A stretch of 64,000 nt of DNA from Phycisphaerae bacterium (GTDB lineage: Bacteria > Planctomycetota > Phycisphaerae > UBA1845 > Fen-1342): positions 124,001 to 188,000 of the forward strand of contig JAJVHV010000002.1 in assembly GCA_022072445.1 (NCBI GenBank). Reading direction: 5' to 3'. This document shows positions 37,564 through 61,165 of this stretch, one piece after another; positions within the stretch are counted from its first letter, which is position 1; each line of letters starts with the position of its first letter. The notes under the pieces are model-generated. The model did not search any database. It saw only the letters and a list, made by a program, of their open reading frames with translations, and was not told the origin of the DNA. Both the position numbers and the translations under genes were made by a program.

Positions 37564-38508
37564 CTAGGCGGGCAGCGCGCGGACGAAATCGCGAATCAGG
37601 ACGTTCTGGTGCTTATGGTAGCCGAAGCATACGAGCGGATAGATCGTCGCGCCCAGCCGCCGGGCCGCGCGGCAGAATAAACGTTCCCACATGCTGGATG
37701 CGTCCGCCATGCGGCGCTCGAAGTTTCGCTGGATGATGATCCACACGTCTTCGCTGAGTTTTTCGGGCGTGCCGAACTCCCCGCTGATGGCCGCGTCGCC
37801 GCCGCGGATGTTGGCGATCAGCTCGTCGGCCGATCCGCCGTGCGAGAGCGTATAGGTGGTTCCAACGCGATGGGTGTGGGAATCGCTGCCGCCGACGAGC
37901 ACTTTTCCGTGCTCGCGGGTCGCATACCAGGCGAACGCGTTATGCGCGTAGCTGCGCGTGCCGTTGAGCCCCTCGAAGACCGGAAAATGCTCGAGCATCA
38001 CCTCGATGTGCCGCCGCGTCAGCACGCGATGCTGTTCGTTCCAGGTCATGTGGTTCAGGACGTAGAGCTTGTCGATGCTGCGGCAGTAGGCGACGAAGTC
38101 GAAAATGTTGTGGCGGACGCGCTGCAATTCGCGATGCTGCTCCTCGTCGATGTCATAGACGTTGCTGTGGATGATGGTCCCATCATGCGGGAAGACGACG
38201 GATACTTCCTCGCCGATGATGAAATCCGGCAGCGGACCGCGGCGGTCGAGCAGCGCGCGGCAGCCGTCGATCGTGTCGTGATCGGTGAGCGTGACGAAGT
38301 CCATGCCGCGCGACTTGGCGAGGTCGTAGCTTTCTTCGGGTTCGAGCAGCGGGTGGTAGACGATGCCGGGCGCGTACTTGATGCGCTCGTCGGAAAAGGT
38401 GCTGTGGCAGTGCATGTCGATCCGGACGTGTGCCGCCGCACCGGCGGCGCGCGGGCCGTCGTCCGGATGGATCGAGTATTCCAGCATCGGCGAGAGCAGG
38501 TCGTTCAT
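37564..38508 (-). CDS. PHP-domain phosphoesterase-like hydrolase
   Basis: 314 aa from the ATG at 38508 (MNDLLSPMLEYSIH). PHP-domain metal ligands are all visible: RIDMHCHSTFSDE at the N-terminus, FVTLTDHDTIDGCRA, DFIIGEEVSVVFPHDGTIIH, YVLNHMTWNE and LVGGSDSHTHRVG. PHP proteins hydrolyse phosphoesters (histidinol phosphate, nucleotides or DNA ends). The middle of this one (FDFVAYCRSIDKLYVLNH) resembles stand-alone PHP phosphatases. Substrate unknown. Confidence 0.85.
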   Translation of the reverse strand: MNDLLSPMLEYSIHPDDGPRAAGAAAHVRIDMHCHSTFSDERIKYAPGIVYHPLLEPEESYDLAKSRGMDFVTLTDHDTIDGCRALLDRRGPLPDFIIGEEVSVVFPHDGTIIHSNVYDIDEEQHRELQRVRHNIFDFVAYCRSIDKLYVLNHMTWNEQHRVLTRRHIEVMLEHFPVFEGLNGTRSYAHNAFAWYATREHGKVLVGGSDSHTHRVGTTYTLSHGGSADELIANIRGGDAAISGEFGTPEKLSEDVWIIIQRNFERRMADASSMWERLFCRAARRLGATIYPLVCFGYHKHQNVLIRDFVRALPA

Positions 38509-39124
38509 TGGTTTTCCGCCGGGCGCAAGGGTCTGGTCGCCGCAACCGATACAACCCATCGTGGCCATGCGTCTGGGCGTCCCCATGGCTCGGACGCCGC
38601 TGCAAACCTGACAGCTCTAAAGGTGTAAGCGTGCTGTGTGAAGATTCCGATATTTCGGCGCGTTATTTCGGTCGAAGTTCCAACAACTTCTGACAAGCGG
38701 CGCGCCCGAATTGCGCAAACCGCTTCCGGCAGGATACCTCCGGGGATGGCTGAGTCAATTGAAAAACGAGCGACGAAGCGACGGAGCGACGAAGGCACGG
38801 AGCGACGGAGCAGGGCCGCGTCGGCCTCCGCGGCACAGGCTGATAGCCCGTGCCGGCAGAGGCTGATAGCCTGTGCCACACTGTCGCTGACGTGTCCATC
38901 CATCAGGGCCGCGTCGGCCATCGCGGCACAGGCTGATAGCCCGTGCCGGCAGAGGCTGATAGCCCGTGCCTGCACAGGCTGATAGCCTGTGCCTGCACAG
39001 GCTGATAGCCTGTGCCACACTGTCGCTGACGTGTCCATCCATCAGGGGCCGCGTCGGCTTCCACGGCAAAAGGCGGGCCGGCAGAATGCCAGCCCTACCG
39101 TGGATTGGCGCGCCGCGCAGGACA
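38509..39124. other. Intergenic region made largely of palindromic repeats
   Basis: About 616 bases between two minus-strand genes. From 38811 to 39060 it is filled by the palindromic repeats described separately; a further palindrome-like element (GCGGGCCGGCAGAATGCCAG) lies at about 39073-39094. No gene is supported. Confidence 0.6.
38811..39060. repeat. Cluster of palindromic repeats (CACAGGCTGATAGCCTGTG) within a larger duplicated unit
   Basis: A sequence close to CAGGCTGATAGCCTGTGCC occurs six times, at about 38836, 38859, 38929, 38952, 38975 and 38998, at 23-bp spacing inside each cluster. CACAGGCT-GAT-AGCCTGTG is a hairpin with a GAT loop. These are nested in a larger unit starting CAGGGCCGCGTCGGCC at 38811 and 38904, with a third start near 39044, ending in ACTGTCGCTGACGTGTCCAT. 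The second unit is longer by two extra 23-bp elements. Confidence 0.8.
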
Positions 39125-39892
39125 TCACGTGCTTTCGATGCGGAACGCCACGGTCACGACGGCCTGCACGTCTTTGTCGACCGTTTCGGTCTCGTATCGG
39201 CCGTAGTCGCTGACTTCGGTCGAGTCGGGCCGGGTTACCTGCAACACTCCCATCTGCACCGAGCGCACGTCCGCCACGCGTCCGCCGACGTTGCGGGCGA
39301 TTTCGTCGGCTCGGCGGCGGGCGTCTTTGGCCGCCTCGCCCAGCAGGTCGGCCCGCAGGTCGGGCAGGCGCGTGATGTAATACTCGGGCGTCAGCGAGAC
39401 GATCACCAGCCCCTCCTGCATGAGCTGCGTCACGTCGCCGGCGGAGGTCGCGACGCGGGACACGTCGGTCGTGCTCAGGACGAAGCTGCGGGCCAGCGTA
39501 TAACCCATCAGCTCGCGCGTCTCGTTTCCCTTCGCGTCGCGGACGTAGTGCGTATTCGTATCGATCGCGCCCAGCCGCACCTCGTCGGGCTGGAAGCCGC
39601 GCTGCGTCAGAAACTCGCGCACGCGCTGCACGCCGCTGTCCAGCGCCGTCAGCGCCTGCTGCAGGTCGCGGTTTTCGCCGCGGATCGTCACGTACCACAC
39701 GGCGCGGTCCGATTGAACGCGCCGGCGGGTCGAGCCCTTGACGGTGATGGTCTGCTCGCGCTGCGCGGCGGTGTCGCCGCGATGCTGATAGGCGCGCGAG
39801 GCGACGAGCGTGCTGGTGACGAGGCTGACGCCCAGGCCGATGACGACGATGGTGGCGGTGGTGGCGACATTGAGGTGGACGCGGTAGTCCAT
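39125..39892 (-). CDS. SIMPL (DUF541) domain periplasmic protein
   Basis: 255 aa from the ATG at 39892 (MDYRVHLNVATTATIVVIGL), with one N-terminal membrane anchor. The SIMPL-domain pattern follows: ITVKGSTRRRVQSDRAVWYV, LTALDSGVQRVREFLTQRGF, DVSRVATSAGDVTQLMQEGL, AAKDARRRADEIARNVGGRV, VAFRIEST. Such proteins form rings outside the inner membrane and are implicated in envelope or oxidative stress. Upstream lies the 131-bp repeat region, which may contain its promoter. Confidence 0.82.
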   Translation of the reverse strand: MDYRVHLNVATTATIVVIGLGVSLVTSTLVASRAYQHRGDTAAQREQTITVKGSTRRRVQSDRAVWYVTIRGENRDLQQALTALDSGVQRVREFLTQRGFQPDEVRLGAIDTNTHYVRDAKGNETRELMGYTLARSFVLSTTDVSRVATSAGDVTQLMQEGLVIVSLTPEYYITRLPDLRADLLGEAAKDARRRADEIARNVGGRVADVRSVQMGVLQVTRPDSTEVSDYGRYETETVDKDVQAVVTVAFRIEST

Positions 39893-40140
39893 GGGCTGCT
39901 CCTCCGTGAGCAGAGCGGACGCGGGACGATGACGCGGGCGATCCGTCGCCCGACGCATGGAAGTATACGCGGCGCGCAAGGCGCGGCGGCAGCAGATTTC
40001 TGGTCGAGAATGGAATTGTGCCGCCCGACGCTGCGCCGCGTGCCGCCGCACCTACCGCCGACCTTCGCCGGACTGGCTGTTCTCATGCCGACCGACCGCC
40101 GAGACGCGCCGGACAGGTCGGTCTCACGCCGCGGCGTGCG

Positions 40141-40402
40141 CCGACACTTGCCGGCAACATCCGCCGGGCGGATCGGTCGACAGTCGCGTCGCCCGCCGCG
40201 CCCACTGCCGACATGGGCGGCGGCGCGCGGCGACATCCGCCGGCCGGGTCGGTCTCGCGCCGCGGCGAGCGCCGACACTTGCCGACACCATCCGCCGGGC
40301 GGATCGGTCGACAGTCGCGTCGCCCGCCGCGCCCACTGCCGACATGGGCGGCGGCGCGCGGCGACATCCGCCGGCCGGGTCGGTCTCGCGCCGCGGCGAG
40401 CG
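40141..40402. repeat. 131-bp direct repeat, two nearly identical copies
   Basis: Copy A (40141-40271) and copy B (40272-40402) are adjacent and differ at only a few positions near their starts. Each begins CCGACACTTGCCG and ends with GGTCGGTCTCGCGCCGCGGCG. The end motif also occurs, slightly changed, just upstream at 40113-40140 and again at about 40483-40505. Confidence 0.85.
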
Positions 40403-40602
40403 TCGCGCCACTGCCGAAATGGCGCGTACGATTCGGACGCATGTCGCGCGGAGCGCCGCTTCCACCGCCGACATGGGCGCACGCATGTCGGTCTCACGCC
40501 GACGCGAGCGACGACGCGGTTCGGGCGCTTTCTGCGTGGGGGGCGTGGCGTGAGCGATTATCGGGATCGACCGGCGACTCGCCGCAAAAACCGGCGGCTG
40601 GA

Positions 40603-40635
40603 TTGACTTTGCCGCGGCGCCCGATAGGTTATGCT
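40603..40635 (+). promoter_or_regulatory. Probable tRNA-Asn promoter
   Basis: TTGACT at 40603-40608 is followed by TAGGTT (40625-40630, spacing 16), overlapping TATGCT (40630-40635, spacing 21). The tRNA begins about 50 bases later. Confidence 0.4.
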
Positions 40636-40682: not shown

Positions 40683-40754
40683 TCCCCGATAGCTCAATGG
40701 TAGAGCACCCGGCTGTTAACCGGGTTGTTGCAGGTTCGAGTCCTGCTCGGGGAG
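40683..40754 (+). tRNA. tRNA-Asn (GUU)
   Basis: A 72-nt cloverleaf. The acceptor stem TCCCCGA (40683-40689) pairs with TCGGGGA (40747-40753). The D-arm is GCTCAATGGTAGAGC. The anticodon arm is CCCGG-CTGTTAA-CCGGG with anticodon GTT at 40715-40717. The T-arm CAGGTTCGAGTCCTG has the standard TTC loop. The CCA end is not encoded. It is followed by a T-run (CTTTTTG). The 3' half is overlapped on the other strand by the end of a serine recombinase gene. Confidence 0.96.
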
Positions 40755-42242
40755 CTTTTTGTTCCAGTCCTCGAACCGTCGCGCGTTCGGTAACGCGTAC
40801 CAGACCTCGACGGTTCGGCGGTCGTGGATGAGCACCTTCTTCACCAGCCGGTGGAGGAGGTGCTTCTTTTGTGGAACCGGGCCGGCGGCCAAAACCTCCT
40901 CGAAGTTGTCGACCAGGGCCGCGAGCATCTCCCGGTCGATCGAGGGCAGTTCCAGCCGCTCCCGCCGGGCCTCCAGGTCACGCTTCTCGGCGTCCAATTG
41001 TTCGACCCGGCCGTGGAGGTCCGCGACCTTCTGGTTGCAGAGTTCGGCCTTGAGCGTCCCGGCCTCGAACGCCTCGAAGTAACGCTCGATCGACGCCCTG
41101 ACCTTGGCAACCTCGGCCTCGACCCGTGCGATCTCCTTCTCGACGTCCGGCTTCTCGGCGCCCAGGCGGCGGTTCGCCTCCTCCCAGACGCGGGCCATGA
41201 AGTCATCGTCGCGGAACATCGCCTTGATGTCCTGCACGATCGCCGCCTCCAGAAGCTCGGCCCGCACGTAGTCCTGTTTGCACACGTGGTCATTGAAGCG
41301 CTTCGAGCAGACGTAGTACGGGATGTAGCGGCCGTTCTTCTGGCCGCCGCCGCCGAACATGTGCGAGTTGCACAGGGCACACTTGATGACGCCCGAAAGC
41401 AGTCGCTCGTCGCCGTTGTGCCACTGGCGGCCCTTCAGATCTTCGTGCCGATCGTCGAGAACCTCCCGCGCCTTCTCGAACAGCACGTCCGAGACGACCG
41501 GGTCGTGCTGACCCTGGTAGAGCACGTCGCGCCAGCGAATCTTGCCGACGTAGACCGGGTTTTTGAGCATGTAGAGGACGACGCGCCGGCCCCACTTTCG
41601 GCCGTTGCGGTTTCGCAGGCCCGCGTCGTTGAGCTTCGTGCAGATTGTGGACGCACCTTCCCGGCCCAGCGCGTACATCGTGAACATCTTGCGGACGATC
41701 AGCGCCTCTTCCTCGTGGATCACCAGGCGCTTGTCGTCGTCGAGCCGGTAGCCGTACGGGACGTTGCCGCCGACGTAACTGCCGGTCTTCGCCTTCCGCT
41801 CCAGGCCGACCCGAGTCCGCTCGACGATCGTCGCGTGCTCGAATTCGGCGAAGACGCCGAGCATCTGGAGCATCATCTTGCCGGCGGCGTTCGACGTATC
41901 GAACGGCTCGGTGATGCTCTTTAGCGTGACGCCGCTCTTCGTGAGGTCGTCCACCATCTGGGCGAGCTCGCGGACCTTGCGGGAGAGGCGATCCACACGA
42001 AAGACCAGCAGCACGTCGAACGCGCGGGACTCGGCGTCGAAGAGCATCTCCTCGAGGCCGGGCCGGTTCATATGCGTGCCGGACTCGGTGTCGCGAAAGA
42101 GCTTGTGGAGCGTCCAGTCGTCGCCGTACTGGGACTTGCAGTACGCCTCCAGCCGGTCCTTCTGGGCGTCGAGCGAGAACTTCTGATGGTCCTCGTCGGT
42201 GCTGATCCGGGTGTAGAAGGCGACCCGCGGCACGGTTCGCAT
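40716..42242 (-). CDS. Large serine recombinase (site-specific integrase)
   Basis: 508 aa from the ATG at 42242 (MRTVPRVAFYTRISTDEDHQ). The resolvase domain has the catalytic serine S14 in YTRISTDED and the conserved LLVFRVDRLSRKVREL and GVFAEFEHATIVERTRVGLE. The Recombinase domain follows (PYGYRLDDDKRLVIHEEEA, STICTKLNDAGLRNRNGRKW), then a zinc ribbon (CALCNSHMFGG...CSKRFNDHVC) and a long coiled coil (about residues 380-440). Its last residues (EQDSNLQQPG) are encoded across the 3' half of the tRNA-Asn gene, the normal layout of an integrase next to its attachment site. A LexA-type palindrome lies about 160 bases upstream of its start. Confidence 0.93.
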   Translation of the reverse strand: MRTVPRVAFYTRISTDEDHQKFSLDAQKDRLEAYCKSQYGDDWTLHKLFRDTESGTHMNRPGLEEMLFDAESRAFDVLLVFRVDRLSRKVRELAQMVDDLTKSGVTLKSITEPFDTSNAAGKMMLQMLGVFAEFEHATIVERTRVGLERKAKTGSYVGGNVPYGYRLDDDKRLVIHEEEALIVRKMFTMYALGREGASTICTKLNDAGLRNRNGRKWGRRVVLYMLKNPVYVGKIRWRDVLYQGQHDPVVSDVLFEKAREVLDDRHEDLKGRQWHNGDERLLSGVIKCALCNSHMFGGGGQKNGRYIPYYVCSKRFNDHVCKQDYVRAELLEAAIVQDIKAMFRDDDFMARVWEEANRRLGAEKPDVEKEIARVEAEVAKVRASIERYFEAFEAGTLKAELCNQKVADLHGRVEQLDAEKRDLEARRERLELPSIDREMLAALVDNFEEVLAAGPVPQKKHLLHRLVKKVLIHDRRTVEVWYALPNARRFEDWNKKLPEQDSNLQQPG

Positions 42243-42400: not shown

Positions 42401-42416
42401 TCTAACGGTTGTTAGA
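42401..42416. promoter_or_regulatory. LexA-type operator upstream of the recombinase
   Basis: TCTAACGGTTGTTAGA is a perfect TCTAAC-N4-GTTAGA palindrome. It is the same arrangement as in the lexA promoter at 44530-44545. It lies in the gap between the recombinase start (42242) and the end of the UbiA-like gene, so it can control the recombinase. Confidence 0.65.
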
Positions 42417-42478
42417 CAGAGGGTGGGCGCCTCGGCGACGCCACACGCGGTCGCGACCTGAAGCTTGCCCGATACGGA

Positions 42479-44236
42479 TCACAGCTGCCGTCCTCCGGGC
42501 ACGGAGCGGCGATCTTCCGGCGGCACATCCGCGACATCTCTGCCTCGGCTCAGTGAGACACGCCCGCTGCCGTGTCTGCGCAGGCCGTGTAACTTCGCAT
42601 ACGCCCCAGCGGCTGGAATAGCCAACAAACCCAGAGCGCACACAAGTACATCCTTAGAGGCGCTACCAGGGAGTCCAACTCCGACAGTCACGAGACAAGC
42701 GTACTTGACTCCCAGAAACCACAAATGCGACTCGCGCTTCCGACTCAGGAACGTTGCCGCAAGTCCAAGGGGGAGTAGGGCTACCGCACTTGTGACGACC
42801 ACGGATAGCGCAACGATCGACAAAACGGACAGGATAGTCACGAGTGCCCGCGCCCAGCGCAGGGAGATGAGCGCGAGCGTGCTCGTTCCTGCTTTTCTGT
42901 CGACGTGCGCATCCCTGACGTCGCCCAGAATGTTACCTGCGGCATCGAGGAGACCCACGCCCGCAGCCAATAGCGCGCTTGCGCTCGTCGTTCCACAAAT
43001 CGAGGCAGTGGCGACTGCCCCGGTAGCCGTTACACACCCACGAAGCAGGTTGGCCACAACTGGGCTGCTCTTGAGGATTCCGTAGAGGCATCCAAACAGA
43101 GTACTCACCAGGACGATTGCTGGGGTGAGGGCGCTAGCAGTAGCAGCAAGGCCAATTGCAAAGGCAAGGAGAGAAAGGCTAAGTGGAATCAGAATCCATG
43201 AGGCACGGCCTCGACCACGGTCGGCACGAGCATCCCGCTCCTGATGGACGAAGTCATGAAGAGCGAGCATCGATATCCAAACCAACGGTCCGAGCAGAAG
43301 CGACAATGCGAAGTCAGCGGCGGTTGGAGACCGTTGTCCCGTCATTACCCCGCATACGCCGACCAAAGCTACGTAGGGAATACTATAGGGTCTGGAGAGG
43401 TTCGCGAATTTCACCACCGCCGACCGAACCAATAAGGAGACAGGACGCGGCGATCTGGCGCGCAGATAGCGAAGTGCGACCTGTGCCGGGTCCGCATAAT
43501 GCATGTATCCGAATTGCGCCACGATCAGGATGGTCATCACGACGATCACGAACAAAGCAGGAGCTCGTGCGGAAATGGGCAGGGCTAGAAACGCCGTACA
43601 CCACGCGAGGTCATAGATGACCTTTCGAGACATGACAGCCGCGTTCACGTCCCACAGACAACGCTCGTCGTCTCCCACGCCAGGATTACTGCGAGCGGAA
43701 CGACGACAGGCACGGTATCCCTGTGCGTACTTTAATGCCGCAGAGAGAAAGAGGGCGGAAAGTGAGAGGCCGAGAATCCGGAGGTTTTCCACTCCAACGA
43801 TCACTGCCACACCGCAGGCCGCGACGAAGCAATCGAGGAGCAGGTCGACCGGACCAGTCGAAGGACTCACGTGATAAAGATAGTCGTTGTAACGATAAAA
43901 AAAACGCGCATACACGACAAAGGTGAGAGTAAGCGCGAGGAGAACCTGCATAAACTCCAGCGTAGCACCGGGTTGTATGGGACGCAGGAATCCCCAGGGA
44001 AAGCCGGGATTGGGGGCTGCACCGAAGAACTGAACGATGAGGATGGCGTAACGGACGGCTAGCCAGGTGCCACAGAGGTAGACCAAGAACATGGCCGGCT
44101 GCGCGGGACTCTTCCGACCGGCTAGCGCACCGGTCGGGAAAAGGGCCACCGCGCCGCGAGCACGCAGGGCTACAGCAAGGTGCTCGTCGAACGGCGGTCT
44201 AGGCCGCAGCTCATCAGAATTCTGCTCGGCGCTCAT
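42479..44236 (-). CDS. Polytopic membrane protein with C-terminal UbiA-like prenyltransferase domain
   Basis: 585 aa. Residues about 50-240 form an N-terminal membrane domain with several helices (FLVYLCGTWLAVRYAILIV, FMQVLLALTLTFVVYARFF, CGVAVIVGVENLRILGLSL) of unknown family. The C-terminal half (about 270-560) is UbiA-like: LHDFVHQERDARADRGRG (near 325) in the place of the first Asp-rich motif, and LLDAAGNILGDVRDAHVDRK (near 427) as the second. The first motif is degenerate compared with NDxxDxxxD. Base composition is somewhat lower in GC than the genes around it. The start used has no strong ribosome-binding site. Confidence 0.65.
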   Translation of the reverse strand: MSAEQNSDELRPRPPFDEHLAVALRARGAVALFPTGALAGRKSPAQPAMFLVYLCGTWLAVRYAILIVQFFGAAPNPGFPWGFLRPIQPGATLEFMQVLLALTLTFVVYARFFYRYNDYLYHVSPSTGPVDLLLDCFVAACGVAVIVGVENLRILGLSLSALFLSAALKYAQGYRACRRSARSNPGVGDDERCLWDVNAAVMSRKVIYDLAWCTAFLALPISARAPALFVIVVMTILIVAQFGYMHYADPAQVALRYLRARSPRPVSLLVRSAVVKFANLSRPYSIPYVALVGVCGVMTGQRSPTAADFALSLLLGPLVWISMLALHDFVHQERDARADRGRGRASWILIPLSLSLLAFAIGLAATASALTPAIVLVSTLFGCLYGILKSSPVVANLLRGCVTATGAVATASICGTTSASALLAAGVGLLDAAGNILGDVRDAHVDRKAGTSTLALISLRWARALVTILSVLSIVALSVVVTSAVALLPLGLAATFLSRKRESHLWFLGVKYACLVTVGVGLPGSASKDVLVCALGLLAIPAAGAYAKLHGLRRHGSGRVSLSRGRDVADVPPEDRRSVPGGRQL

Positions 44237-44583
44237 CCGCTATGCTCAGTCGCTAGGCGCTGCACGAGAGGAACGACGGGCTCGCGCCTGCGCGCGACGG
44301 CCAAAGTATATCGCCAGCGCACCCGCGGTGGGTAGCGGCGGCGGGTTCGTGTTTCCGATTGGCCTCAGTCCATAGCTGCGCGCCCGGAAAGTGCGCCGGG
44401 AGGCCAGGCCGCTCTGCTCAGAGTCACAACCCCTTCTCTTTCCTGAAGTTATGAAGCCTCGGGTGGGTGTGTGACACCGCAGAAGCCCGCCCACCATCGG
44501 TCGATGGAGACTCGGTCGGCTCTGTCACATCTAACGCGCGTTAGATACAATGCCTCCGGTATTGGCGAACCCGAGGAGCATCT
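44237..44583. other. Divergent intergenic region containing the lexA promoter
   Basis: About 347 bases. Besides the lexA promoter/operator (44522-44551) and the ribosome-binding site GAGGAG just before 44584, there is no gene or repeat that I can support. Confidence 0.5.
44522..44551 (+). promoter_or_regulatory. lexA promoter with palindromic operator between -35 and -10
   Basis: CTGTCA (44522-44527) and TACAAT (44546-44551) are separated by 18 bases. The spacer is almost entirely occupied by ATCTAACGCGCGTTAGAT (44529-44546), a perfect 18-bp palindrome with a TCTAAC-N4-GTTAGA core. A repressor bound here would block RNA polymerase directly. Confidence 0.75.
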
Positions 44584-45213
44584 ATGCCTGGAGGCGGCCA
44601 GACCCCGCTGACGGCGCATCAACTGGCGATCCTGGACTGGATCAAGCAGTTCATTCGCACCCACGCCATGCCGCCGACCGTGCGCGAAATCGGCGCCGCA
44701 TTCGACATCAAGAGTTCGAGCGTCTTCGCATTACTGAAAGCGCTCGAAAGGAAGGGCGCTCTTCAGCGCGGCGAGCTCGGCGCGAGGTCCCTGATCATCC
44801 ACGACGCACGTCGGCGCGGCCGGGACGGCGTGGTGGAGGTGTCGATCATCGGTCGCATCGCTGCTGGGCGACCCATCGAGGCCATTGAAGGCGATCGTGG
44901 CACCGTGAGCGTCAGGCGCGACCTGCTTCGTGGGCAACCCGGATACGCGCTCCAGGTCGTCGGCGACAGCATGATCGACGCCGGCATCCTAAACGGCGAT
45001 TACGTCGTCGTCCGTAAGCAGGAGACGGCGGACGACGGGGACATCGTCGTCGCGCTGATCGGCGACGAGGCGACGTTGAAGCGAATCTTCCGCGAACGCG
45101 ATGGGGTGTGGTTGGAACCGGCCAACAGAGCCTTGCGACCCATCTGGGTGCGAAACGACGACTTCCGCGTTCAAGGCAAGGTCGTTGGGGTCCATCGCGT
45201 GATGGAGTCGTGA
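44584..45213 (+). CDS. lexA: LexA-family repressor (S24 autopeptidase)
   Basis: 209 aa with GAGGAG upstream of the ATG. The N-terminal winged helix reads LTAHQLAILDWIKQFIRTHA, PPTVREIGAAFDIKSSSVFA, LLKALERKGALQRG. The S24 domain has the cleavage site A94-G95 in RIAAGRP, the catalytic serine S129 in VVGDSMIDAGILNGDYVVV and the lysine K166 in DEATLKRIF. It should self-cleave when RecA filaments form, lifting repression. Its own promoter carries a palindrome also found ahead of the recombinase. It is within the island, so it may be the element's own repressor rather than the host LexA. Two unknown genes follow on the same strand. Confidence 0.93.
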   Translation: MPGGGQTPLTAHQLAILDWIKQFIRTHAMPPTVREIGAAFDIKSSSVFALLKALERKGALQRGELGARSLIIHDARRRGRDGVVEVSIIGRIAAGRPIEAIEGDRGTVSVRRDLLRGQPGYALQVVGDSMIDAGILNGDYVVVRKQETADDGDIVVALIGDEATLKRIFRERDGVWLEPANRALRPIWVRNDDFRVQGKVVGVHRVMES

Positions 45214-45232: not shown

Positions 45233-46387
45233 ATGGCACAACACGGATTCCGCAATTTCGGCAGTCTCACGTTCCTGCAAGGCATTGACAAGCCCAAGTT
45301 CCTTACTCCGCTGCTCAAGCGCCACGTCAGGTACTTCAAACGGCACGGGGTTGACGTCGCCGCACTGGACAACGACGACGCGACCGATCGCAAACTCCTG
45401 GAAGTGTTCACTCAGCCGAAGGAGGACACGCCAACTGATCTGCGCGAAGCGCTCCATATGCTCGACAACGTGTCCGATGAAGTGGGCCGCGATCGAATAC
45501 AGGCCGAACTGGATCGAACGCGCCGCCGGGTCAGCGGCCTCAACGACGCCACTCCGGGGGAGTTCGCCATCGCCGTCTATCTGCGGAGCCCGGAGGTAAT
45601 CCAGAACTGCTATGACCAAACGATCAGCGAGCAGGTCAAACAGTACGACGAGTATCAGTCCCTCAGCAATCGGAGGCTCACGCTTGCCCTCGCCAGGAGG
45701 AAGAGAGGCGAGCTCGAACGCGCGCTATCGAAGTGGTTCATGGGCCGGGGCCGAGGCGGCCTTTGCGAGATATATGTCTACTCCGAGGAAGCGGAGATCG
45801 TCTTCGTCATCACGCATGGGCGAAACTACCGCAGCGTCGGCGCCGTCGAGAAAGACCGACGTCGATCGCGCGTGACATACCGACCGCAAAAGCACGACAC
45901 CGTGGTGTTCAACACGCAGACGCGCATCCTAAAACTGCATGCCCAATTCTCGAACGAAAAGGACTCGTATCGGCGCTGCTTCGGTGAGGTCTTGTTCGGC
46001 AACCCGGTGAACTTCCCGGACTCCGACATCTACTTCCTGAAGCCGATTCAGAAGCGTAACTTCAAGTTGAAGATCACGCCCGGCATTGAGTCTGCGCGAA
46101 TGTCAGAGGTATGGACCGTGGTCCACGACGAGCAACACTTACTGATGCGATGCTCGGCCTACGACGTATTGACGAGCGCGCGACGACGCGGTCACCCGAA
46201 TCTGCAGGAAGGCGACGTAATCCGGGGCGCGTTCATGATCAAGTACTCCAGCGGGGGTCGTGAGCGGAAAGTGGAACTGCGCCCTTCCAATGTCGCAGTC
46301 TACGATCGCGACCGGGACACCGCGGCGACCGAGCGGTTCATCCAGGAGAACGGCTTCCTGAGAGTGAAGCGCGCCGATGGAAAATAG
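45233..46387 (+). CDS. Unknown protein in the lexA operon
   Basis: 384 aa, start ATG 20 bases after the lexA stop. It begins MAQHGFRNFGSLTFLQGI and is a soluble, basic, mixed alpha/beta protein. The N-terminal third is helical and charged (LREALHMLDNVSDEVGRDRI). The middle has strand-like segments (CEIYVYSEEAEIVFVITHGR, RVTYRPQKHDTVVFNTQTRI) and the C-terminus another (VWTVVHDEQHLLMRCSAYDV). No signal, membrane segment or enzyme motif is visible. It overlaps the next gene by 11 bases. If lexA controls its operon, this protein is damage-inducible. I do not recognise the family. Confidence 0.65.
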   Translation: MAQHGFRNFGSLTFLQGIDKPKFLTPLLKRHVRYFKRHGVDVAALDNDDATDRKLLEVFTQPKEDTPTDLREALHMLDNVSDEVGRDRIQAELDRTRRRVSGLNDATPGEFAIAVYLRSPEVIQNCYDQTISEQVKQYDEYQSLSNRRLTLALARRKRGELERALSKWFMGRGRGGLCEIYVYSEEAEIVFVITHGRNYRSVGAVEKDRRRSRVTYRPQKHDTVVFNTQTRILKLHAQFSNEKDSYRRCFGEVLFGNPVNFPDSDIYFLKPIQKRNFKLKITPGIESARMSEVWTVVHDEQHLLMRCSAYDVLTSARRRGHPNLQEGDVIRGAFMIKYSSGGRERKVELRPSNVAVYDRDRDTAATERFIQENGFLRVKRADGK

Positions 46388-46979
46388 CCCGACCTCGTTG
46401 CGGCCGTTTTGGGAGGCTCTGGAAACGAATTTCCCGCTTGCGGGAGTTCGGAAGTCGTTGAATGACCTTTTGAGCGAGTCGCTGGTTGAGGCGCTTGAGC
46501 AATCCGCTCTATTCCGCTTCGAACGGCAATCGCCTGTCTACCCGTGCCCGAAGCCCGGCGGCGCGGGATGCCCACGACATATCCGCGTGCGTCGGGATGG
46601 TCGAATCGTCGCGATATGCGGCAACCACCCTCCTGAGTGCGACGATGTGATGCTGTCCGACCGCGAGGCGGAGCTGATCGGCGTGAATCCAGAGGAACTC
46701 GTTGCTGCGCTGCGCGAACCGCTCCTGTTCGGCGGCACCGACAACATTGAGACCGAGCTACGCCACGTGTACCTGGGGGGTGCCTATCTTCCCTTCTGGA
46801 CGGCCGTGGTGGTCTTCACCTTCACGCGCGGCGTCGGCGACCTGGCCGGCTGGATATTCACATCCGCCGCATGCTCGTCCGCAGCGGTGCTGATGGGCGC
46901 ACTCCAAGGTAGGGGCGTCCCGCCGCGTGGCGCTGAGCGCGCTGTCGGCGCTGCGGGCTGCAAGGATTGCGGGAAATAG
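46377..46979 (+). CDS. Unknown protein with four-cysteine zinc site and a hydrophobic C-terminus
   Basis: 200 aa, overlapping the preceding gene by 11 bases. A likely zinc site is formed by CPKPGGAGCPRHIRVRRDG and ICGNHPPEC (about residues 59-98). The region DREAELIGVNPEELVAAL follows, then a hydrophobic stretch (YLPFWTAVVVFTFTRGVG, IFTSAACSSAAVLMGAL) that may be one or two membrane helices, then a cysteine pair CKDC at the end. The C-terminal 50 residues look unlike the rest and could reflect a frameshift. Third gene of the lexA unit; function unknown. Confidence 0.55.
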   Translation: MENSPTSLRPFWEALETNFPLAGVRKSLNDLLSESLVEALEQSALFRFERQSPVYPCPKPGGAGCPRHIRVRRDGRIVAICGNHPPECDDVMLSDREAELIGVNPEELVAALREPLLFGGTDNIETELRHVYLGGAYLPFWTAVVVFTFTRGVGDLAGWIFTSAACSSAAVLMGALQGRGVPPRGAERAVGAAGCKDCGK

Positions 46980-47341: not shown

Positions 47342-47408
47342 TCCGCCGCTCCGCTTTTCGAAGTCGCCGGCTCCCGCGTTCTGAGCCGTCTTGTACGCCG
47401 ATGCCGCG

Positions 47409-47438
47409 TTGGTACAATGCGCGTTGTTATTATACCAA
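47409..47438. promoter_or_regulatory. Divergent control region with inverted repeats and an extended -10
   Basis: TTGGTA (47409-47414) and TACCAA (47433-47438) form an outer inverted repeat; ACAATGCGCGTTGT (47414-47427) is an inner imperfect palindrome. On the minus strand the sequence reads TTGGTATAAT, a perfect -10 (47434-47429) with TGn extension, serving the helix-turn-helix gene. The palindromes lie over its start point and could be its own operator or a site for the divergent regulator. Confidence 0.5.
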
Positions 47439-47450
47439 ATTCTTTGTGAC

Positions 47451-49043
47451 ATGAAGACGATCCGCATTCTAGTTTCATGGGTCGGCAAGACCGATCTGCT
47501 GTGCATGACGCCCGATCTCTCGGAGGCGCAGCAGGTCGAGACCTTTCGGCTGCTCGGCGAGAAACCAGCGAAGGCGAAGCAGCCTGGGCCGCTCCGCACG
47601 CTCGTTGAACTCGAGTTATTCGACGGCATCCACCTGATCAGCAATTATCCGGCGAAGTTGAATCGATGGTTCGCCGAGTGGTTGGGCCATGACGCCGCCG
47701 TACGCTCGGTGGAGCTGGTTGACCCAACCGACTATCCGGCGGTGTTCCGCGTAGCGGACGCGTTCCTCGGGGAGGTCGCGAAGGCACCGGCCGGCGGGCG
47801 TCTCGACCTTAGCATCCACCTGAGCTCCGGTACGCCGACGATGGCCGCGATCTGGGTGCTGCTCGGCAAGAGCAAGTATCCGGCCACGTTCTACCAGACC
47901 TACGCCGGCCAGGCCCGCCGGACCGAAATCCCGTTCGATCTTGTGCTCGACTACGTGCCCGAGTTGCTCAGGGAATCCGACCAGCTCTTCCAGCATCTCG
48001 CCGTGCGCGGGCCGCAGGACGTCGCCGGGTTCGAACAGATCGTTGGTGACAGCAAGCCGATTCGGATCGCCGTAGGTCGAGCGCACAAGGCGGCCGTTCG
48101 CGACGTGCCGGTACTACTCGTCGGCGAAAGCGGCGTGGGTAAGGAGCTCTTTGCTCGTGCGATCCACGCTGCCAGTAGGCGGCGCGACAAGCCATTCGTC
48201 GCGATCAACTGCGCCGCAGTTCCGAAGGACCTGCTCGAATCCGACCTTTTCGGCCATAAGAAGGGCGCGTTCACCGGCGCGACACATGAACACGCCGGGC
48301 GTTTCGAAGAGGCCGACGGCGGGACGCTCTTTCTGGACGAGATCGCCGAATTCGATCCTGCCCTCCAGTCGAAACTGCTGCGCGTCCTTCAGCCGGTGCC
48401 GGGCGGGCGGCCGAGTGATCTGGTTCTCCAGCGTGTCGGCGAGACGAAGGATAGGAAGGTGAACGTCCGCATCATCGCGGCCACGAATCAGGACCTGCTG
48501 GCCCGTATGAACGAGAACCGCTTTCGTCGCGATCTCTACTACCGGCTGGCGGTGGTCACGCTGAAGCTGCCGCCGCTTCGACACCGGAAAACCGACATTC
48601 CAGCAATCGCGGGGGCCCTGCTCGCCAGGATCAACGAGCAGTTCGCCCACGACGAGCCGGGCTACCGCCACAAATCCCTTTCTGCCGCCGCCATGCAGTT
48701 TGTGAGGACCTACGCCTGGCCCGGCAACGTGCGGCAGCTGAATAGTGCGTTGCTCCAGGCGGCCGTAATGTCGGCCAGCGACAGGATCGAACGGGCTGAG
48801 ATCGAGGCGGCGCTCGCCGAAGGGCCAGCGGAAGTCGCAACGCGGGATTGGTCCGAGCACCCGCTCGGTGACGGCTTTGACGTGGAAAAACACCTTGAGG
48901 AGCTTCACCGGCGGTACCTCGCCCGGGCAATGCAGGAGGCGGGCGGCGTGAAGGCCCGGGCCGCGAAGCTGCTCGGGATGCGGAACTACCAGACGCTCGA
49001 CGCGCAGCTCAAACGGCTGGGCGTTGACTGGAAGTCGCCGTAG
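47451..49043 (+). CDS. RtcR-like sigma-54 activator with N-terminal CARF-like sensor domain
   Basis: 530 aa from the ATG at 47451 (MKTIRILVSWVGKTDLLCM). Residues about 1-190 are a Rossmann-like sensor whose signature LDLSIHLSSGTPTMAAIWVL (about 118-137) matches the nucleotide-contact loop of CARF domains, as in RtcR and CRISPR ancillary proteins. The AAA+ domain follows: Walker A GESGVGKE (about 224), the sigma-54 contact loop GAFTGA (about 272), Walker B GTLFLDEIAEF, R-finger region NRFRRDLYYRLAVV. The C-terminal HTH is ARAAKLLGMRNYQTLDAQLK. It should bind a signal nucleotide or RNA end and then open a sigma-54 promoter. Such a promoter lies 22 bases past its stop, ahead of the next gene. 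No rtcA or rtcB is present nearby. Confidence 0.88.
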   Translation: MKTIRILVSWVGKTDLLCMTPDLSEAQQVETFRLLGEKPAKAKQPGPLRTLVELELFDGIHLISNYPAKLNRWFAEWLGHDAAVRSVELVDPTDYPAVFRVADAFLGEVAKAPAGGRLDLSIHLSSGTPTMAAIWVLLGKSKYPATFYQTYAGQARRTEIPFDLVLDYVPELLRESDQLFQHLAVRGPQDVAGFEQIVGDSKPIRIAVGRAHKAAVRDVPVLLVGESGVGKELFARAIHAASRRRDKPFVAINCAAVPKDLLESDLFGHKKGAFTGATHEHAGRFEEADGGTLFLDEIAEFDPALQSKLLRVLQPVPGGRPSDLVLQRVGETKDRKVNVRIIAATNQDLLARMNENRFRRDLYYRLAVVTLKLPPLRHRKTDIPAIAGALLARINEQFAHDEPGYRHKSLSAAAMQFVRTYAWPGNVRQLNSALLQAAVMSASDRIERAEIEAALAEGPAEVATRDWSEHPLGDGFDVEKHLEELHRRYLARAMQEAGGVKARAAKLLGMRNYQTLDAQLKRLGVDWKSP

Positions 49044-49064
49044 TTCGCGCGGCGTGATCGGGAC

Positions 49065-49080
49065 TGGCACGCGGCATGCA
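49065..49080 (+). promoter_or_regulatory. Sigma-54 (-24/-12) promoter
   Basis: TGGCACGCGGCATGCA has the invariant GG (49066-49067) and GC (49078-49079) exactly ten bases apart, and matches the consensus TGGCACG-N4-TTGCA at all fixed positions but one. It is located between the sigma-54 activator (stop 49043) and the gene starting at 49144. The predicted start is near 49091, so coding sequence cannot begin before it. Confidence 0.75.
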
Positions 49081-49143
49081 GCGGACGAGGTCGGCCGCCA
49101 GTTTGGGCGATGGGTGGCCTACGACCTCGAGGAGTGCGGTGCG

Positions 49144-50853
49144 ATGGCGGTTCAACTGGGCATGCAGTTGCACTACCGCTGCGTGTTTGACGTGACGGCG
49201 CCAGGCGAGGCGGCGGCCATCTGGTCCGACCTAGCAAAGTCCATCCGCGCCTGGATCGCGGGCAAGGAGGCCACGAACGAAGCCTTCTTCAGCCGGTGGT
49301 TCTTCGCCGGGGGCGAATGGAAGCCGCCGGGCCAGCCGCGCGTGTTCGTAAATACCGAGCGATTCGTCGGCGACGGCACCGAGACCGCGCCGCAATTCTG
49401 GTCGATCCGGTACGAGCACCCATGCAGCGACGTTCCGTTCAGGCAGTGGCGGACTGACATCGGTATCGGCGCCACCGGTGATGGGCGATACCGTCTTTCG
49501 CTCGTCACCGCACATTGGCTGCTCGACGATTTCTCGCTCGCGCGGACGACTATGCCCTTGCCATCGGCGCCACGGATTGTGTCGAATCTGGTTTCCTCGC
49601 AGGTCTGGACAGCCGCCGCCGGGTCCGAGCTACTGCGTGCCCGGCCGAATACGGTCCGCGTTGGAGAAGGTAATCTGCTCGTCGAGCGCATCACCGATCC
49701 GCAGCGTCTCTGCCCGCTCATCTACGTGAGCCGTGAGAACGATACGGACGCGCCCAAGGTCGATGCGGCGCGGCTCGCCCGGCAGCTCGCCGGCACAGCC
49801 GTCGTCTACGAGGCCGCATCCCGCGAGCTGAACGACGAGCTTGGTTGGTTGATGCCCTCCGAGTTTCAGTGTCGCGGAGGGATGGTGCGGGTCTACCAGC
49901 CGAGCGTTCACGTCGATCGCGCTGGCGATTTCCGGCGGCACCGGTTCTTTACGCGGGACGCGATTGGCGAGCGCGGCGCCGAGCAGGTCGAGAACCAGAT
50001 CATCGAGGCGATCACCCGTCGCGTCGGCACCGCGATCTCCGATGCCGTGACGACGGTGGAAGACGTGGTCGCGAAACAGCGCGAGGCGCGGCTTGCGGAG
50101 CTGCGACCGACGACCGTCGACGACTCCACTCGGGAGTGGATCAGTCTTCTGGAGGCTGACAACGCCCGCCTGATCGAGGAGAGCAGGACTTTCAAGAGCC
50201 GGATCGAGCAGCTGAGCGACCGCGTCGAGTTCGCCGAGGTGGAGAAGGCGGAGGTCGTGGACGAACTCTCCGATGCGAAGGCCCGTCAGCAGCAGGAGAT
50301 GCAGTTCCGGTTTCAAGCCGAGTCGCGCGTTCGCACGCTGGAGCGCCAGCGGGACTTCGCCGACGCGTTAAAGTCGCTGCCGGAATCGCTGCCAGAGATC
50401 ATCGAGCTGATCGAGCGCATCCATGCGGACCGAGTCGCCTTCACCGACCGCGCCCGGAAATCGGCCGCCGACGCACGGATCAATGAGGAGCGCGGCGAGA
50501 TGTTCGAGGCCTGGCGGTGCCTCTGGGCCGTGGCCACGGACCTCCACGACCTGTGCTTCGGCGACGATAACGAGCCGGGGCGACTGATCGACACGTTCAG
50601 ATCGCGCACGGGGTTCGACATCGCACTTACGGAGACCAAGCAGACGAAGCGGGACAACAAACTGATGGCCCTGCGGAAGGACGCGTTCAACGGCGAGGAG
50701 ATCAACATCACGCCGCACGTCAAGTACGGAAGCAAGGAGCCCAAGTGCCTGCGCGTCCACTTCCACGCGTACCGGAATGGCGACCGGAAACTCATCGTCG
50801 TCGGGCACTGCGGTGATCATCTGGATACGTACGGCACGCAGAAGCGAAGGTGA
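49144..50853 (+). CDS. Large coiled-coil protein of unknown function, predicted target of the CARF/sigma-54 regulator
   Basis: 569 aa from the ATG at 49144, with GAGGAG nine bases before it. The frame is open further upstream to 49024, but that part carries the sigma-54 promoter. Residues 1-290 are globular (WSIRYEHPCSDVPFRQWRTD, CPLIYVSRENDTDAPKVDAA, ARQLAGTAVVYEAASRELND, CRGGMVRVYQPSVHVD); residues about 290-440 are a long coiled coil (ISLLEADNARLIEESRTF, VEFAEVEKAEVVDELSDA); the end is a compact basic domain (FNGEEINITPHVKYGSKEPK, LIVVGHCGDHLDTYGT). No known enzyme motif was recognised. Its link with an RNA/nucleotide-sensing activator suggests a stress- or infection-induced effector. Confidence 0.7.
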   Translation: MAVQLGMQLHYRCVFDVTAPGEAAAIWSDLAKSIRAWIAGKEATNEAFFSRWFFAGGEWKPPGQPRVFVNTERFVGDGTETAPQFWSIRYEHPCSDVPFRQWRTDIGIGATGDGRYRLSLVTAHWLLDDFSLARTTMPLPSAPRIVSNLVSSQVWTAAAGSELLRARPNTVRVGEGNLLVERITDPQRLCPLIYVSRENDTDAPKVDAARLARQLAGTAVVYEAASRELNDELGWLMPSEFQCRGGMVRVYQPSVHVDRAGDFRRHRFFTRDAIGERGAEQVENQIIEAITRRVGTAISDAVTTVEDVVAKQREARLAELRPTTVDDSTREWISLLEADNARLIEESRTFKSRIEQLSDRVEFAEVEKAEVVDELSDAKARQQQEMQFRFQAESRVRTLERQRDFADALKSLPESLPEIIELIERIHADRVAFTDRARKSAADARINEERGEMFEAWRCLWAVATDLHDLCFGDDNEPGRLIDTFRSRTGFDIALTETKQTKRDNKLMALRKDAFNGEEINITPHVKYGSKEPKCLRVHFHAYRNGDRKLIVVGHCGDHLDTYGTQKRR

Positions 50854-50879
50854 CCGCCGGGCTGACGGAGCGACCTCGG

Positions 50880-51671
50880 ATGACAATGCGACTGTCAATT
50901 GCAGGCCTTCTCGTGGCGCTCACGTCCGGCTGCGCCTTGCACAACGTCGGTTACAACACGTTCGTGAAGAACAAGATCGAGCCGGTCGATCATGCCACAG
51001 TCGTTCACGGTACGATCGATGAGTCCAAGCGGCTCACCGAACAGGCCCAGCTTCCGCATAACACGCCGAGGCAGCGCTATGAGCTTGAGCGCGAAGCCGG
51101 CAAGCTGCTTCGCGCGCAGCTCGGATCACAAGACTACCTCGTTATCGGCGAAGTCTTTGGCGGAGGGAATGCGTATTCGACCCTGGAGACGCTGAAAGCA
51201 GCGTTCGCCAAGAAGGCGGCAAACCGAGGCGGCGACGTTGTGCTGATTTTCAGTACCGGGGTTGAGGAGCGCCCGTTCGTCTACAGCACGCCCGGTCACG
51301 CCAAGACGAACGTGTACGGTTCCGCGTACAGCTACGGCAACTACGCGTCCGGTCAAGCCACGGCCTACACGACCTACACCCCAGGCCAGACGTACGCAGG
51401 CGTCATGCGCTTTCCGCGGGCGAACGGCCTCGTTTTCAAGTACGTGCCCGGCATCGAACTGAAGCGCGAAGCGATCAACTCGCTCGCCGACCCTGATCTA
51501 GAGCGTGCCCTGCGGGAACTCGATGCCCTTCGAGCTGACGACTCAATCACGCTGGGGGAGGCCGTTCGGCGCTGGGGCGAGCTCACTGGTCAGCGCGACA
51601 CGGAAAGCAAACGCGGGTCCGCGCTGAACGGGGCGCAAACCCAAGGAGCACCACATGGCAAGAGGCCCTGA
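50880..51671 (+). CDS. Lipoprotein of unknown function
   Basis: 263 aa from the ATG at 50880, with a lipoprotein signal peptide (MRLSIAGLLVALTSGCA; lipobox TSGC). The mature part contains a strand-helix region (LVIGEVFGGGNAYSTLETLK, AAFAKKAANRGGDVVLIFST) and a Tyr/Ser/Gly-rich stretch (VYGSAYSYGNYASGQATAYT), and a helical C-terminus. A predicted outer-membrane or periplasmic lipoprotein in the middle of a defence-like region is unexpected. It overlaps the next gene by 17 bases. Confidence 0.65.
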   Translation: MTMRLSIAGLLVALTSGCALHNVGYNTFVKNKIEPVDHATVVHGTIDESKRLTEQAQLPHNTPRQRYELEREAGKLLRAQLGSQDYLVIGEVFGGGNAYSTLETLKAAFAKKAANRGGDVVLIFSTGVEERPFVYSTPGHAKTNVYGSAYSYGNYASGQATAYTTYTPGQTYAGVMRFPRANGLVFKYVPGIELKREAINSLADPDLERALRELDALRADDSITLGEAVRRWGELTGQRDTESKRGSALNGAQTQGAPHGKRP

Positions 51672-52281
51672 AGATCGCTACTACGAATTCGCCGAACAGG
51701 GCTGGCTCCCACCGCAAGAGGCTCGGTCGTACGTGTGCGGTTGGTGCGGTCGCACAGTTTCCTCGCAGCTCGGAATGGGAAAGAGCGAGCTCCGGATTGA
51801 ATCGAGCCCGCTGGCGCCGCTTGGCGTCCCGAACCAGTTCAGCCGGGATGTCCGGGTTTGCACCCACTGTGCCTGCGCCACGACGTTCATCGAGCACAAC
51901 CAGCTTCCAGGTCCGTTGCCGGGCGAACACTTCGAAGCCAAGGGCAAGGGCGAGCACGTTGAACTCATCGCAACGCTGTACAACGAAGCCAGGTTTGCAC
52001 TGCGTGACGGCGCCGCGAGCTGCGCGACACTCATGTTCCGCAAGCTGCTCATGCACGTCGCGGTTGAGCAGGGCGCCAAACCCGGCTTGAAGTTCGTGCA
52101 ATACGTCGAGCACCTGAAGGACGAGGGCGTCGTCGGCAAGCCGCAGCACGGCTTGCTGACCCGCATCAAGGACGCCGGCAACCTGGAGAACCATGAGGTG
52201 CGGCGGGCTTCTCCCCAAGAGGCGCGGGATTTGCTGGACCTCACGTCCCTTCTGATTCGGAGCGTCTATTTCGCGGCGTGA
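51655..52281 (+). CDS. DUF4145-domain protein with zinc ribbon
   Basis: 208 aa. A four-cysteine site, YVCGWCGRTVSS...VRVCTHCACA, opens the protein. The rest has the helical DUF4145 pattern: ATLYNEARFALRDGAASCAT, LMFRKLLMHVAVEQG, LKFVQYVEHLKDEGVVGKP, AGNLENHEVRRASPQEARDL, LDLTSLLIRSVYF. DUF4145 occurs on its own and fused to restriction enzymes, and is often found next to restriction-modification genes, as here (type III mod starts 39 bases downstream). Its exact role is unknown. Confidence 0.75.
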   Translation: MARGPEDRYYEFAEQGWLPPQEARSYVCGWCGRTVSSQLGMGKSELRIESSPLAPLGVPNQFSRDVRVCTHCACATTFIEHNQLPGPLPGEHFEAKGKGEHVELIATLYNEARFALRDGAASCATLMFRKLLMHVAVEQGAKPGLKFVQYVEHLKDEGVVGKPQHGLLTRIKDAGNLENHEVRRASPQEARDLLDLTSLLIRSVYFAA

Positions 52282-52319
52282 GCTGCTGCAGGCTGGCGGC
52301 AGGCGTGTGGAGACGGATA

Positions 52320-54815
52320 ATGGCGGTCAAGCAGACGGTTCTCGAAGCGCTCACGCGGCCGCGGCTGGCCGACCTCGTTCGGCGGTTTGACGGCGGTTCC
52401 GCGCGGGCCGGCGCGGCCAAGACCGAATTCGTGAGCCGCCTGGTACGCTGCCGTGGCGCCACGCTGGAAGCGCTCCTGGCGGCCCTGACGCGTGATGAGC
52501 TGAGGGCCGCGTGCGTTCGGCTTGGGCTGCCCGACGACGGGCGCGACAAGCGGACGTTGACCGAACGGATACTCGGCAACGGCCTGCTGGCGCGTGGTCG
52601 CGGTGGGCAGGCCAACTCGAAGACGGATCGACGCATGAACGAACAGACCTCGGCGACGAACCAAGGCCCGGCAGGAACCCGCCAACCGGGCACGCCCGTC
52701 GGCGGCGCCGCCGCCGCAAGCAGTCGCGCGCCTGGGATGCCCGCGGGCAGATCCCCACTGCCGTGGGGGCCGGACAACCCGCATCCGCTCTCGACGCTGA
52801 AGACGGAGCTGGTCTGGGAGGGCAAGTACGACGAGTACGGCAATCGCCGCGAGGTCGACGTGGCTGGTTGTGCCATGCCGCTCCAGAAGATCGAGACCAT
52901 CGATCAACCGCGTAGCGAAGCCGCCGCCGCCGGCCAGCTCGCCCTATTCGAGAAGCAGACGAAGCGGCTCGACGATTTCCGCAACATGCTCATCCGGGGC
53001 GACAATAAGCTCGTACTTGCGTCACTCTTGAAGGACTTTCGCGGAGAGATCGATCTCATATATATCGACCCGCCGTTCGATGTTGGCGCCGATTTCACGT
53101 TAGACGTTCCTATCGGCGAAGAGAATGAGAAAATCGGCAAGGATCAGTCTACGCTGGAAATGGTCGCGTACCGAGATACGTGGGGGCGCGGAACCGACTC
53201 GTACTTACACATGATGTATGAGCGGCTCATCCTGATGCGCGACCTCATCAGCGAGACCGGCAGCATCTTCGTGCATCTTGCCCCGACAGTAAGCCACTTG
53301 CTCAAGCTCGTGATGGACGAGGTGTTTACGACCGACAACTTTCGCAACGAGATTATCGTTCACCGCCCAATATCGAAGAACCTGCAGCGGCAATTTACGT
53401 CAATCAAAGCGCTGCCTCAGGGTCACGACGCGATTCTCTGGTACAGCCGCACTTCGAATACGCGGTTTCAGTCTCTTTACGTATCTCAGGAGGTCCGTGA
53501 GGAGGGCTACTGGCACCGTTTCTGGAGCGGAGCTGATCGCCCCACAATGCGCTACGAGTTACTTGGAGAGACCCCGACGCACGGGCAGTGGAAGTGGAAG
53601 AAAGAGCGTGCCCTGAAAGCAGTGGAGAACTACGAGCAGTACCTCCGCGATGGAAGAGGTCGCACTCTCGCACAATACTGGCGCGACACGGGCGAGCAAC
53701 TTGAGTTCATTCGGAAATCAGCAACTGGCACCGCGGAGAATTACTACCCACCACAGGATGAGAAGATTGCCGATACGATTTGGGAGGACGTAAAGGCGTA
53801 CGAGAATCAGAAGGATTTTCCAACGCAGAAACATCGGGAATTGCTAACTCGGATCATCGAGTTCGCAAGCGAGGGGGATCAGCTCGTTGCGGACTTCTTC
53901 TGTGGTTCTGGAACGACCGGCGTCATCGCTGAATCGCTTGGTCGGCGGTGGTTAATGTGCGACCTCGGTCGGTTCGGTATCCACGTCGCGCGAAAGCGCC
54001 TGATCGATACGCAACGGGCGTTGCACGAAGAGGGCAAGCCCTATCGGGCTTTCGATGTCCATAACCTCGGCCGGTACGAGCGCCAGTGGTGGCAAAAGGA
54101 GCGGCTGCAAGGAGCGGACGATGAGCACCGACGGCTTGTTTTGGAATTCTACCGCGCCGAGCCGATCAAGAGCGCGTCACCGCTGATCCACGGGCGCAAG
54201 GGTCCCGCGCTCGTCCATGTGGATTCGATCGACACCATGTTTACGCGCGACGAGGCGACGGCTGTCGCGAAGGCCGCCAAGGAGGCCGGGGCGAAGGAAG
54301 TCGCATGCCTGTCGTGGGAATTCGAGATGGACCTGCGGCTGCACACGCAGGCGCTGGAAAGCGAGCTGGGCGTCAAGCTCAAGCTCATCCCGATCCCGCG
54401 TGAGATCATGGAGCGCAACCGCAAGGAGCCGCCGCCGTTCCTCGAGATGGCCGTGCTGGAGGCCGAGCCGGTCTACCGCAAGCAGAACGGCAGGCGGACC
54501 GTCGACATCAAGCTCACGAAGTTTATGCCGTCGCTGGCGGAGGTGCCGAGCAAGGAGCTGGAAGCGCTGAAGGAGCGGGCCGTCAAGAGCGGGTTCGACT
54601 TCATCGACTTCTGGGCGGTCGATTTCGATTACCACGACGGACGGCCGTTCAGCCACCACTGGCAGGACTATCGCACGCGGAAGGGCCGCTCGCTCAAGAC
54701 CGTGTCCGACCAGCACTACGCCTACGCCAGACCGGGCAAGTACACGGCGTGCGTGAAGGTCGTGGACATCTTCGGCTGCGACACGTCGATCACCGTGGGG
54801 GTGGACTATGCCTAG
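52320..54815 (+). CDS. mod: Type III restriction-modification DNA methyltransferase (Mod)
   Basis: 831 aa from the ATG at 52320. A helical SAP/Rho-N-like domain comes first (residues about 1-85: LARPRLADLVRRFDGG-like, LEALLAALTRDELRAACVRL). The methyltransferase core follows with motif order IV then I (beta class): IDLIYIDPPFDVG (about residue 248) and LVADFFCGSGTTGVIAES (about 524). The region between them holds the target recognition domain. The C-terminal 250 residues are specific to this type III subgroup (DIKLTKFMPSLAEVPSKE, YAYARPGKYTACVKVVDIFG). It modifies adenine in the recognition site on one strand and is needed for Res to cut. The stop overlaps the res start by eight bases. Confidence 0.92.
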   Translation: MAVKQTVLEALTRPRLADLVRRFDGGSARAGAAKTEFVSRLVRCRGATLEALLAALTRDELRAACVRLGLPDDGRDKRTLTERILGNGLLARGRGGQANSKTDRRMNEQTSATNQGPAGTRQPGTPVGGAAAASSRAPGMPAGRSPLPWGPDNPHPLSTLKTELVWEGKYDEYGNRREVDVAGCAMPLQKIETIDQPRSEAAAAGQLALFEKQTKRLDDFRNMLIRGDNKLVLASLLKDFRGEIDLIYIDPPFDVGADFTLDVPIGEENEKIGKDQSTLEMVAYRDTWGRGTDSYLHMMYERLILMRDLISETGSIFVHLAPTVSHLLKLVMDEVFTTDNFRNEIIVHRPISKNLQRQFTSIKALPQGHDAILWYSRTSNTRFQSLYVSQEVREEGYWHRFWSGADRPTMRYELLGETPTHGQWKWKKERALKAVENYEQYLRDGRGRTLAQYWRDTGEQLEFIRKSATGTAENYYPPQDEKIADTIWEDVKAYENQKDFPTQKHRELLTRIIEFASEGDQLVADFFCGSGTTGVIAESLGRRWLMCDLGRFGIHVARKRLIDTQRALHEEGKPYRAFDVHNLGRYERQWWQKERLQGADDEHRRLVLEFYRAEPIKSASPLIHGRKGPALVHVDSIDTMFTRDEATAVAKAAKEAGAKEVACLSWEFEMDLRLHTQALESELGVKLKLIPIPREIMERNRKEPPPFLEMAVLEAEPVYRKQNGRRTVDIKLTKFMPSLAEVPSKELEALKERAVKSGFDFIDFWAVDFDYHDGRPFSHHWQDYRTRKGRSLKTVSDQHYAYARPGKYTACVKVVDIFGCDTSITVGVDYA

Positions 54816-58242: not shown

Positions 58243-58299
58243 TGGCGGGCATTCGGCGAAGAAGAGCGCACACTGCTTGCTGTTGGGTGAGATTATCGC

Positions 58300-60012: not shown

Positions 60013-60017
60013 CTCCC

Positions 60018-60995: not shown

Positions 60996-61165
60996 GCGGC
61001 GTCCTCTTCTGCATCGCTCTTTCAGTATCACAAGCCACGTGGTGGTAGGACACATAGGATTGTGCCGCCAGCATGCCGTTCGGCTGGATTCCATGAACCT
61101 CTCGGGCAGATTGGTCGCGCGGCACGCCGAATGCGTATCGTCACGCACGCATGGGAGAAAAGCAG

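Follow-up and report, generated by a model that had tools for sequence, protein, structure and literature searches.

What reads the palindrome TCTAAC-N4-GTTAGA, which in this Phycisphaerae genome lies both at the promoter of a lexA gene and ahead of a recombinase gene, and what would be switched there? In the window, by which we mean the whole stretch of 64,000 nucleotides that was analysed, exact copies sit at 42401-42416 and 44530-44545. The preliminary description had found no other copy of the core in the window, and this is true even of the whole genome (5,249,578 bases, 50 contigs). One-mismatch copies are absent throughout the 5.25 Mb, and two mismatches bring in 11 further places, as compared to 112 places with up to two mismatches for the reversed control pattern. 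Chance alone would give about 0.013 exact copies in 5.25 Mb (first-order Markov model, window composition). It is highly probable, in our view, that both palindromes are operators of the adjacent phage LexA, as predicted from sequence, and that the locus represents a damage-switched phage of tRNA-Asn, here carrying cargo and truncated.

At lexA the palindrome falls between the -35 and the -10, just as had been described: the 18-bp perfect version, ATCTAACGCGCGTTAGAT (44529..44546, no strand assigned), fills the spacer between a -35-like CTGTCA (44522-44527) and a -10-like TACAAT (44546-44551), with which it has one base in common. It is identical in phage L235, and homologues carry it at the same position. 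The second copy, TCTAACGGTTGTTAGA (42401..42416, likewise without strand), is located upstream of the recombinase gene, 159-174 bp from the likely ATG (42242, minus strand), which has AGGAG before it. The frame is open up to an in-frame GTG (42344), from which the distance is 57 bp; no convincing recombinase promoter was recognised beside this copy.

The lexA gene (44584..45213, plus strand) encodes a phage-type protein of 209 aa with the Pfam domains PF01726 (LexA_DNA_bind) and PF00717 (S24). Its 196.3 bits against the NCBIfam equivalog TIGR00498 (cut-off 110.95) place it in that family, and both the Ala-Gly cleavage site (A94-G95) and the Ser-Lys pair (S129, K166) of LexA proteins are present and invariant. 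The large serine recombinase, or integrase (40716..42242, minus strand), is 90-93% identical to phage homologues, and the 3′ end of its gene overlaps tRNA-Asn(GTT) (40683..40755, plus strand), the attachment site. Between recombinase and lexA, and separating the two palindromes, lies a cargo gene for a 585-aa UbiA-like membrane protein (42479..44236, minus strand), which has the same direction as the recombinase gene; the assignment comes from a weak NCBIfam match below the cut-off, and Pfam gave no convincing match. Directly 3′ of lexA follows an early phage gene of 384 codons (45233..46387, plus strand), whose product is 49-50% identical to those of the post-lexA genes of phages L158 and L320 and has a structure model of low confidence (pLDDT 59.5), and then a further, truncated early gene (46377..46979, plus strand). 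In place of this early-gene pair (window 45233-46979), other phages of the group have different pairs, one of these pairs with a SAP domain.

Relationship to these phages is confined in the window to the recombinase, lexA, the 384-aa gene and, up to 46793, where homology ends, ~140 codons at the start of the next gene. In C6:104001-230190, no further homology to these phages was detected, except for unrelated matches of L159 (a MAG contig) outside the element. Structural and packaging genes, which the relatives have, are absent around the window element, so that it is not an intact temperate phage, and a terminase search of the whole genome, run without a positive control, gave no match. What had been taken for an island begins, on this homology, as a truncated temperate prophage in tRNA-Asn, composed of the recombinase, the UbiA-like cargo, lexA, one early gene and a broken gene. 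To its right, at 47391-63749, we observe a defence-like run consisting of an RtcR/CARF sigma-54 activator, an HEC-07-like protein, a type III restriction-modification pair and an AAA ATPase; to the left of tRNA-Asn, at 38505-40606, the sequence is repetitive and of low complexity, and open frames with internal repeats are seen on either strand.

Given such a truncation, operators and LexA could be decaying relics that served the ancestral phage only, a reading which the end of the phage genes at 46793, the lack of a terminase match and the missing right attachment site would fit, and which we consider possible, if rather unlikely. Against it, neither operator is damaged, and the frames for LexA, the recombinase and the 384-aa protein are all open. 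The ratio of dN to dS relative to L235 is well below 1 for both genes compared (0.04/0.31 and 0.19/0.98), though this low ratio reflects mostly time spent in phages.

If the palindrome belongs to the phage LexA, it should be sought where that protein has relatives. The closest LexAs (62-72% identity) are encoded on IMG/VR contigs and on MAG contigs labelled with several phyla, and in nine viral loci a recombinase 65-93% identical to that of the window is divergent from lexA, with a CTAAC-N4-GTTAG palindrome between the two. The relatives' contigs, several of them with structural genes, encode terminase, portal, major head, tail/tape-measure, exonuclease, helicase and primase proteins; a search of plasmids and phage records, in turn, returned only distant LexAs (<60% identity). 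Of 15 virus records in which lexA has a homologue, 12 contain the exact CTAAC-N4-GTTAG, in one copy each (three of the 12 being near-copies of each other), where 0.019 would be expected in the 219,777 bases of phage sequence; it is absent at the phage-type LexAs L160, L244 and L249. A 14-letter palindrome scan of the viral contigs yielded 119 stretches, among which chance matches are expected to dominate. In most LexA homologues, the palindrome is immediately preceded by TTGAC, or something close to it, and immediately followed by a -10-like hexamer, an arrangement that has the geometry of steric repression. In line with the earlier proposal of a lineage- or element-specific LexA operator, then, the same site recurs at homologous phage lexA genes, and the palindrome very probably serves the encoded LexA as its operator, one specific to the mobile element.

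Alternatively, the palindrome might be a site on which the serine recombinase itself acts, accessory or for resolution, rather than an operator. Two copies flank the cargo gene in the window, and in the phages the site is near the recombinase gene. Co-occurrence nevertheless tells against such a function: across 18 loci with recombinase homologues, the site is present in all 11 that have a lexA neighbour and in none of the seven that lack one (Fisher p=3e-5). In three of these seven the available flank is only ~1.5 kb, and the four virus loci alone give p=7e-4. Conversely, LexA homologues without this recombinase (L156, L163 and L245) retain the site or a variant of it at the same promoter position, and attachment takes place at tRNA-Asn, at the opposite end of the recombinase gene. 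We therefore reject a recombinase site as very improbable.

The layout of the closest relative, L235, suggests how two operators came about. There, integrase (93% identity) and lexA (72%) lie back to back with one common ATCTAACGCGCGTTAGAT, which is likely the ancestral plan. When the window is aligned with L235 and read by eye, the recombinase-side DNA matches up to the operator and the lexA-side DNA from the operator on, indicating that the cargo gene occupies the place of the single operator, with one operator left on each side. Cargo in the same integrase-lexA gap is also seen in L155, L238, L242, L243 and L333, where the likely genes point away from the operator, which would place transcription of the cargo under the switch. 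Sites, conservation, co-occurrence with lexA, phage origin and truncation can all be read from the sequence.

Does the host recognise the same letters? On contig 49 the genome carries another lexA (44% identity), and in one stretch around each gene, neither this lexA nor recA has the exact motif. A motif scan, as proposed in the preliminary description, thus finds the site at homologous phage lexA genes, and not at recA or the host lexA. The host's own LexA would be the natural reader of a box of its SOS regulon, yet it belongs to another clade and has a different recognition helix, and with no further copy in the genome, be it exact or with one mismatch, and none at the host lexA and recA loci, a host SOS box is scarcely credible and was rejected. 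A cellular regulon would have boxes at recA and other repair genes; here, the genome's only two sites are both inside the element. Presence at homologous phage lexA genes and restriction to the element together argue for an operator of the phage LexA and against one of the host SOS regulon.

Phylogeny is consistent with this separation, the window LexA falling within a phage-type group of 15 rows (98/94), apart from the host LexA. A larger group (20 rows, 97/85) joins the phage-type LexAs to those of one family, f53, which, among the 294 genomes sampled from the phylum, contains the nearest LexAs, in three genomes and at 53-56% identity. All three genes (L161, L162, L009) have a superfamily-2 helicase gene after them, and their genomes each encode another LexA. 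Their boxes read ACTAAAC-N4-GTTTAGT, ACTAAAC-N4-GTTTGGT and ACTCAAC-N4-GTTGAGT, and the recognition helix tracks the box, KSSSVF going with CTAAC and TPRxVF with CTAAAC or CTCAAC.

How novel is the motif? It had been described as differing from well-known LexA boxes, and in its half-sites it does: they are TAAC and not the GAAC of the Gram-positive type, at the same spacing of 4. As to its class, the motif is best read as GAAC-N4-GTTC changed at one symmetric position, not as a class of its own. Among the relatives L157, L158 and L164 there are hybrid sites (in L157 and L158) and GAAC boxes, and the two LexAs of one MAG (RA.bin114), L163 and L164, have CTAAC and CGAAC half-sites, respectively. 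A distant LexA, L225 (39% identity), has ATCTAACATTTGTTAGAT upstream, and the TAAC box may consequently have arisen more than once.

Together, this suggests a switch wherein a tailed temperate phage lineage carries a complete cellular-type LexA and integrates into tRNA-Asn via its large serine integrase, with one ancestral operator between a divergent integrase unit and a lexA-early-gene unit. By analogy with the LexA family, from which we infer that the protein binds, is cleaved and controls the recombinase, a LexA dimer would cover the -35/-10 spacer and turn off its own promoter, and bound LexA would presumably repress the opposite, integrase unit as well. Upon DNA damage, activated RecA would trigger self-cleavage of LexA, and both units would open. 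In the present genome, a cargo gene has come between the units, flanked by one operator to either side, and the second early gene is where the phage was truncated. As ancestral wiring, DNA-damage control of the recombinase appears well supported.

Whether the truncated copy could still leave its site is another matter. The preliminary description had linked DNA damage to excision of the island; the site is indeed tied to the recombinase, being a common divergent site in the relatives, but the right attachment site was not found, and excision of the truncated copy is therefore doubtful. The 3′ end of tRNA-Asn gave only two 12-base repeat matches in C6:104001-230190, at chance level; from a serine integrase, whose core is short, a long direct repeat would not be expected. 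In the window as well as in L155, L236 (the same record as L318), L238, L243, L333 and L348, the 3′ end of the integrase gene reaches into tRNA-Asn or lies right next to it, and the core common to these attachment sites is about GGCTCC. A search of relatives for an empty site returned mostly tRNA-Asn plus short left-flank matches, and no clear empty site.

The predicted switch resembles several known systems. With cellular LexAs that bind GAAC-N4-GTTC it shares the fold, the autocleavage residues, the half-site AAC, the spacing of 4 and an operator at the protein's own promoter, whereas the TAAC half-site, the phage location and a single operator beside an integrase instead of a cellular regulon set it apart. 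Like phage CI-type repressors, it has a cleavable S24 protein adjoining a temperate-phage integrase; unlike them, its DNA-binding domain is of the LexA type (Pfam LexA_DNA_bind) rather than the XRE type, and in the loci analysed here lexA runs with the early genes instead of being divergent from them. Phage GIL01 is likewise temperate and switched by LexA and DNA damage, but depends on the LexA of its host; gp6, the homologue that it encodes itself, is truncated and activates transcription (PMC6182141, PMC4551915). In integrons, too, a recombinase is under LexA control, as predicted here, except that there the host LexA acts, while the present element brings its own LexA and operator (PMC3108266). 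A search of the open-access literature returned no description of this phage group, nor of any phage in which a complete LexA and its own operator stand beside the integrase.

Variation of the LexA box is well documented, with 17 types counted, and canonical LexA has been proposed to be possibly a captured phage repressor, as argued from CI-like repressors (PMC8565304). A wider picture, quite possible though short of probable, is that in temperate phages specific to tRNA-Asn the immunity repressor is a complete cellular-type LexA, integrase and lexA having one operator in common, that single-base changes of the half-site set immunity types, that cargo is parked under the same switch, and that this LexA lineage was also either the source or the descendant of the second LexA on the chromosomes of one family in the phylum, and might link phage repressors with SOS regulators. 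The group has a searchable signature, namely integrase, CTAAC-N4-GTTAG and lexA at tRNA-Asn, and its phages, with a full LexA and their own operator beside the integrase, represent a system for testing how LexA moves between phage and chromosome and how the letters of its operator change.
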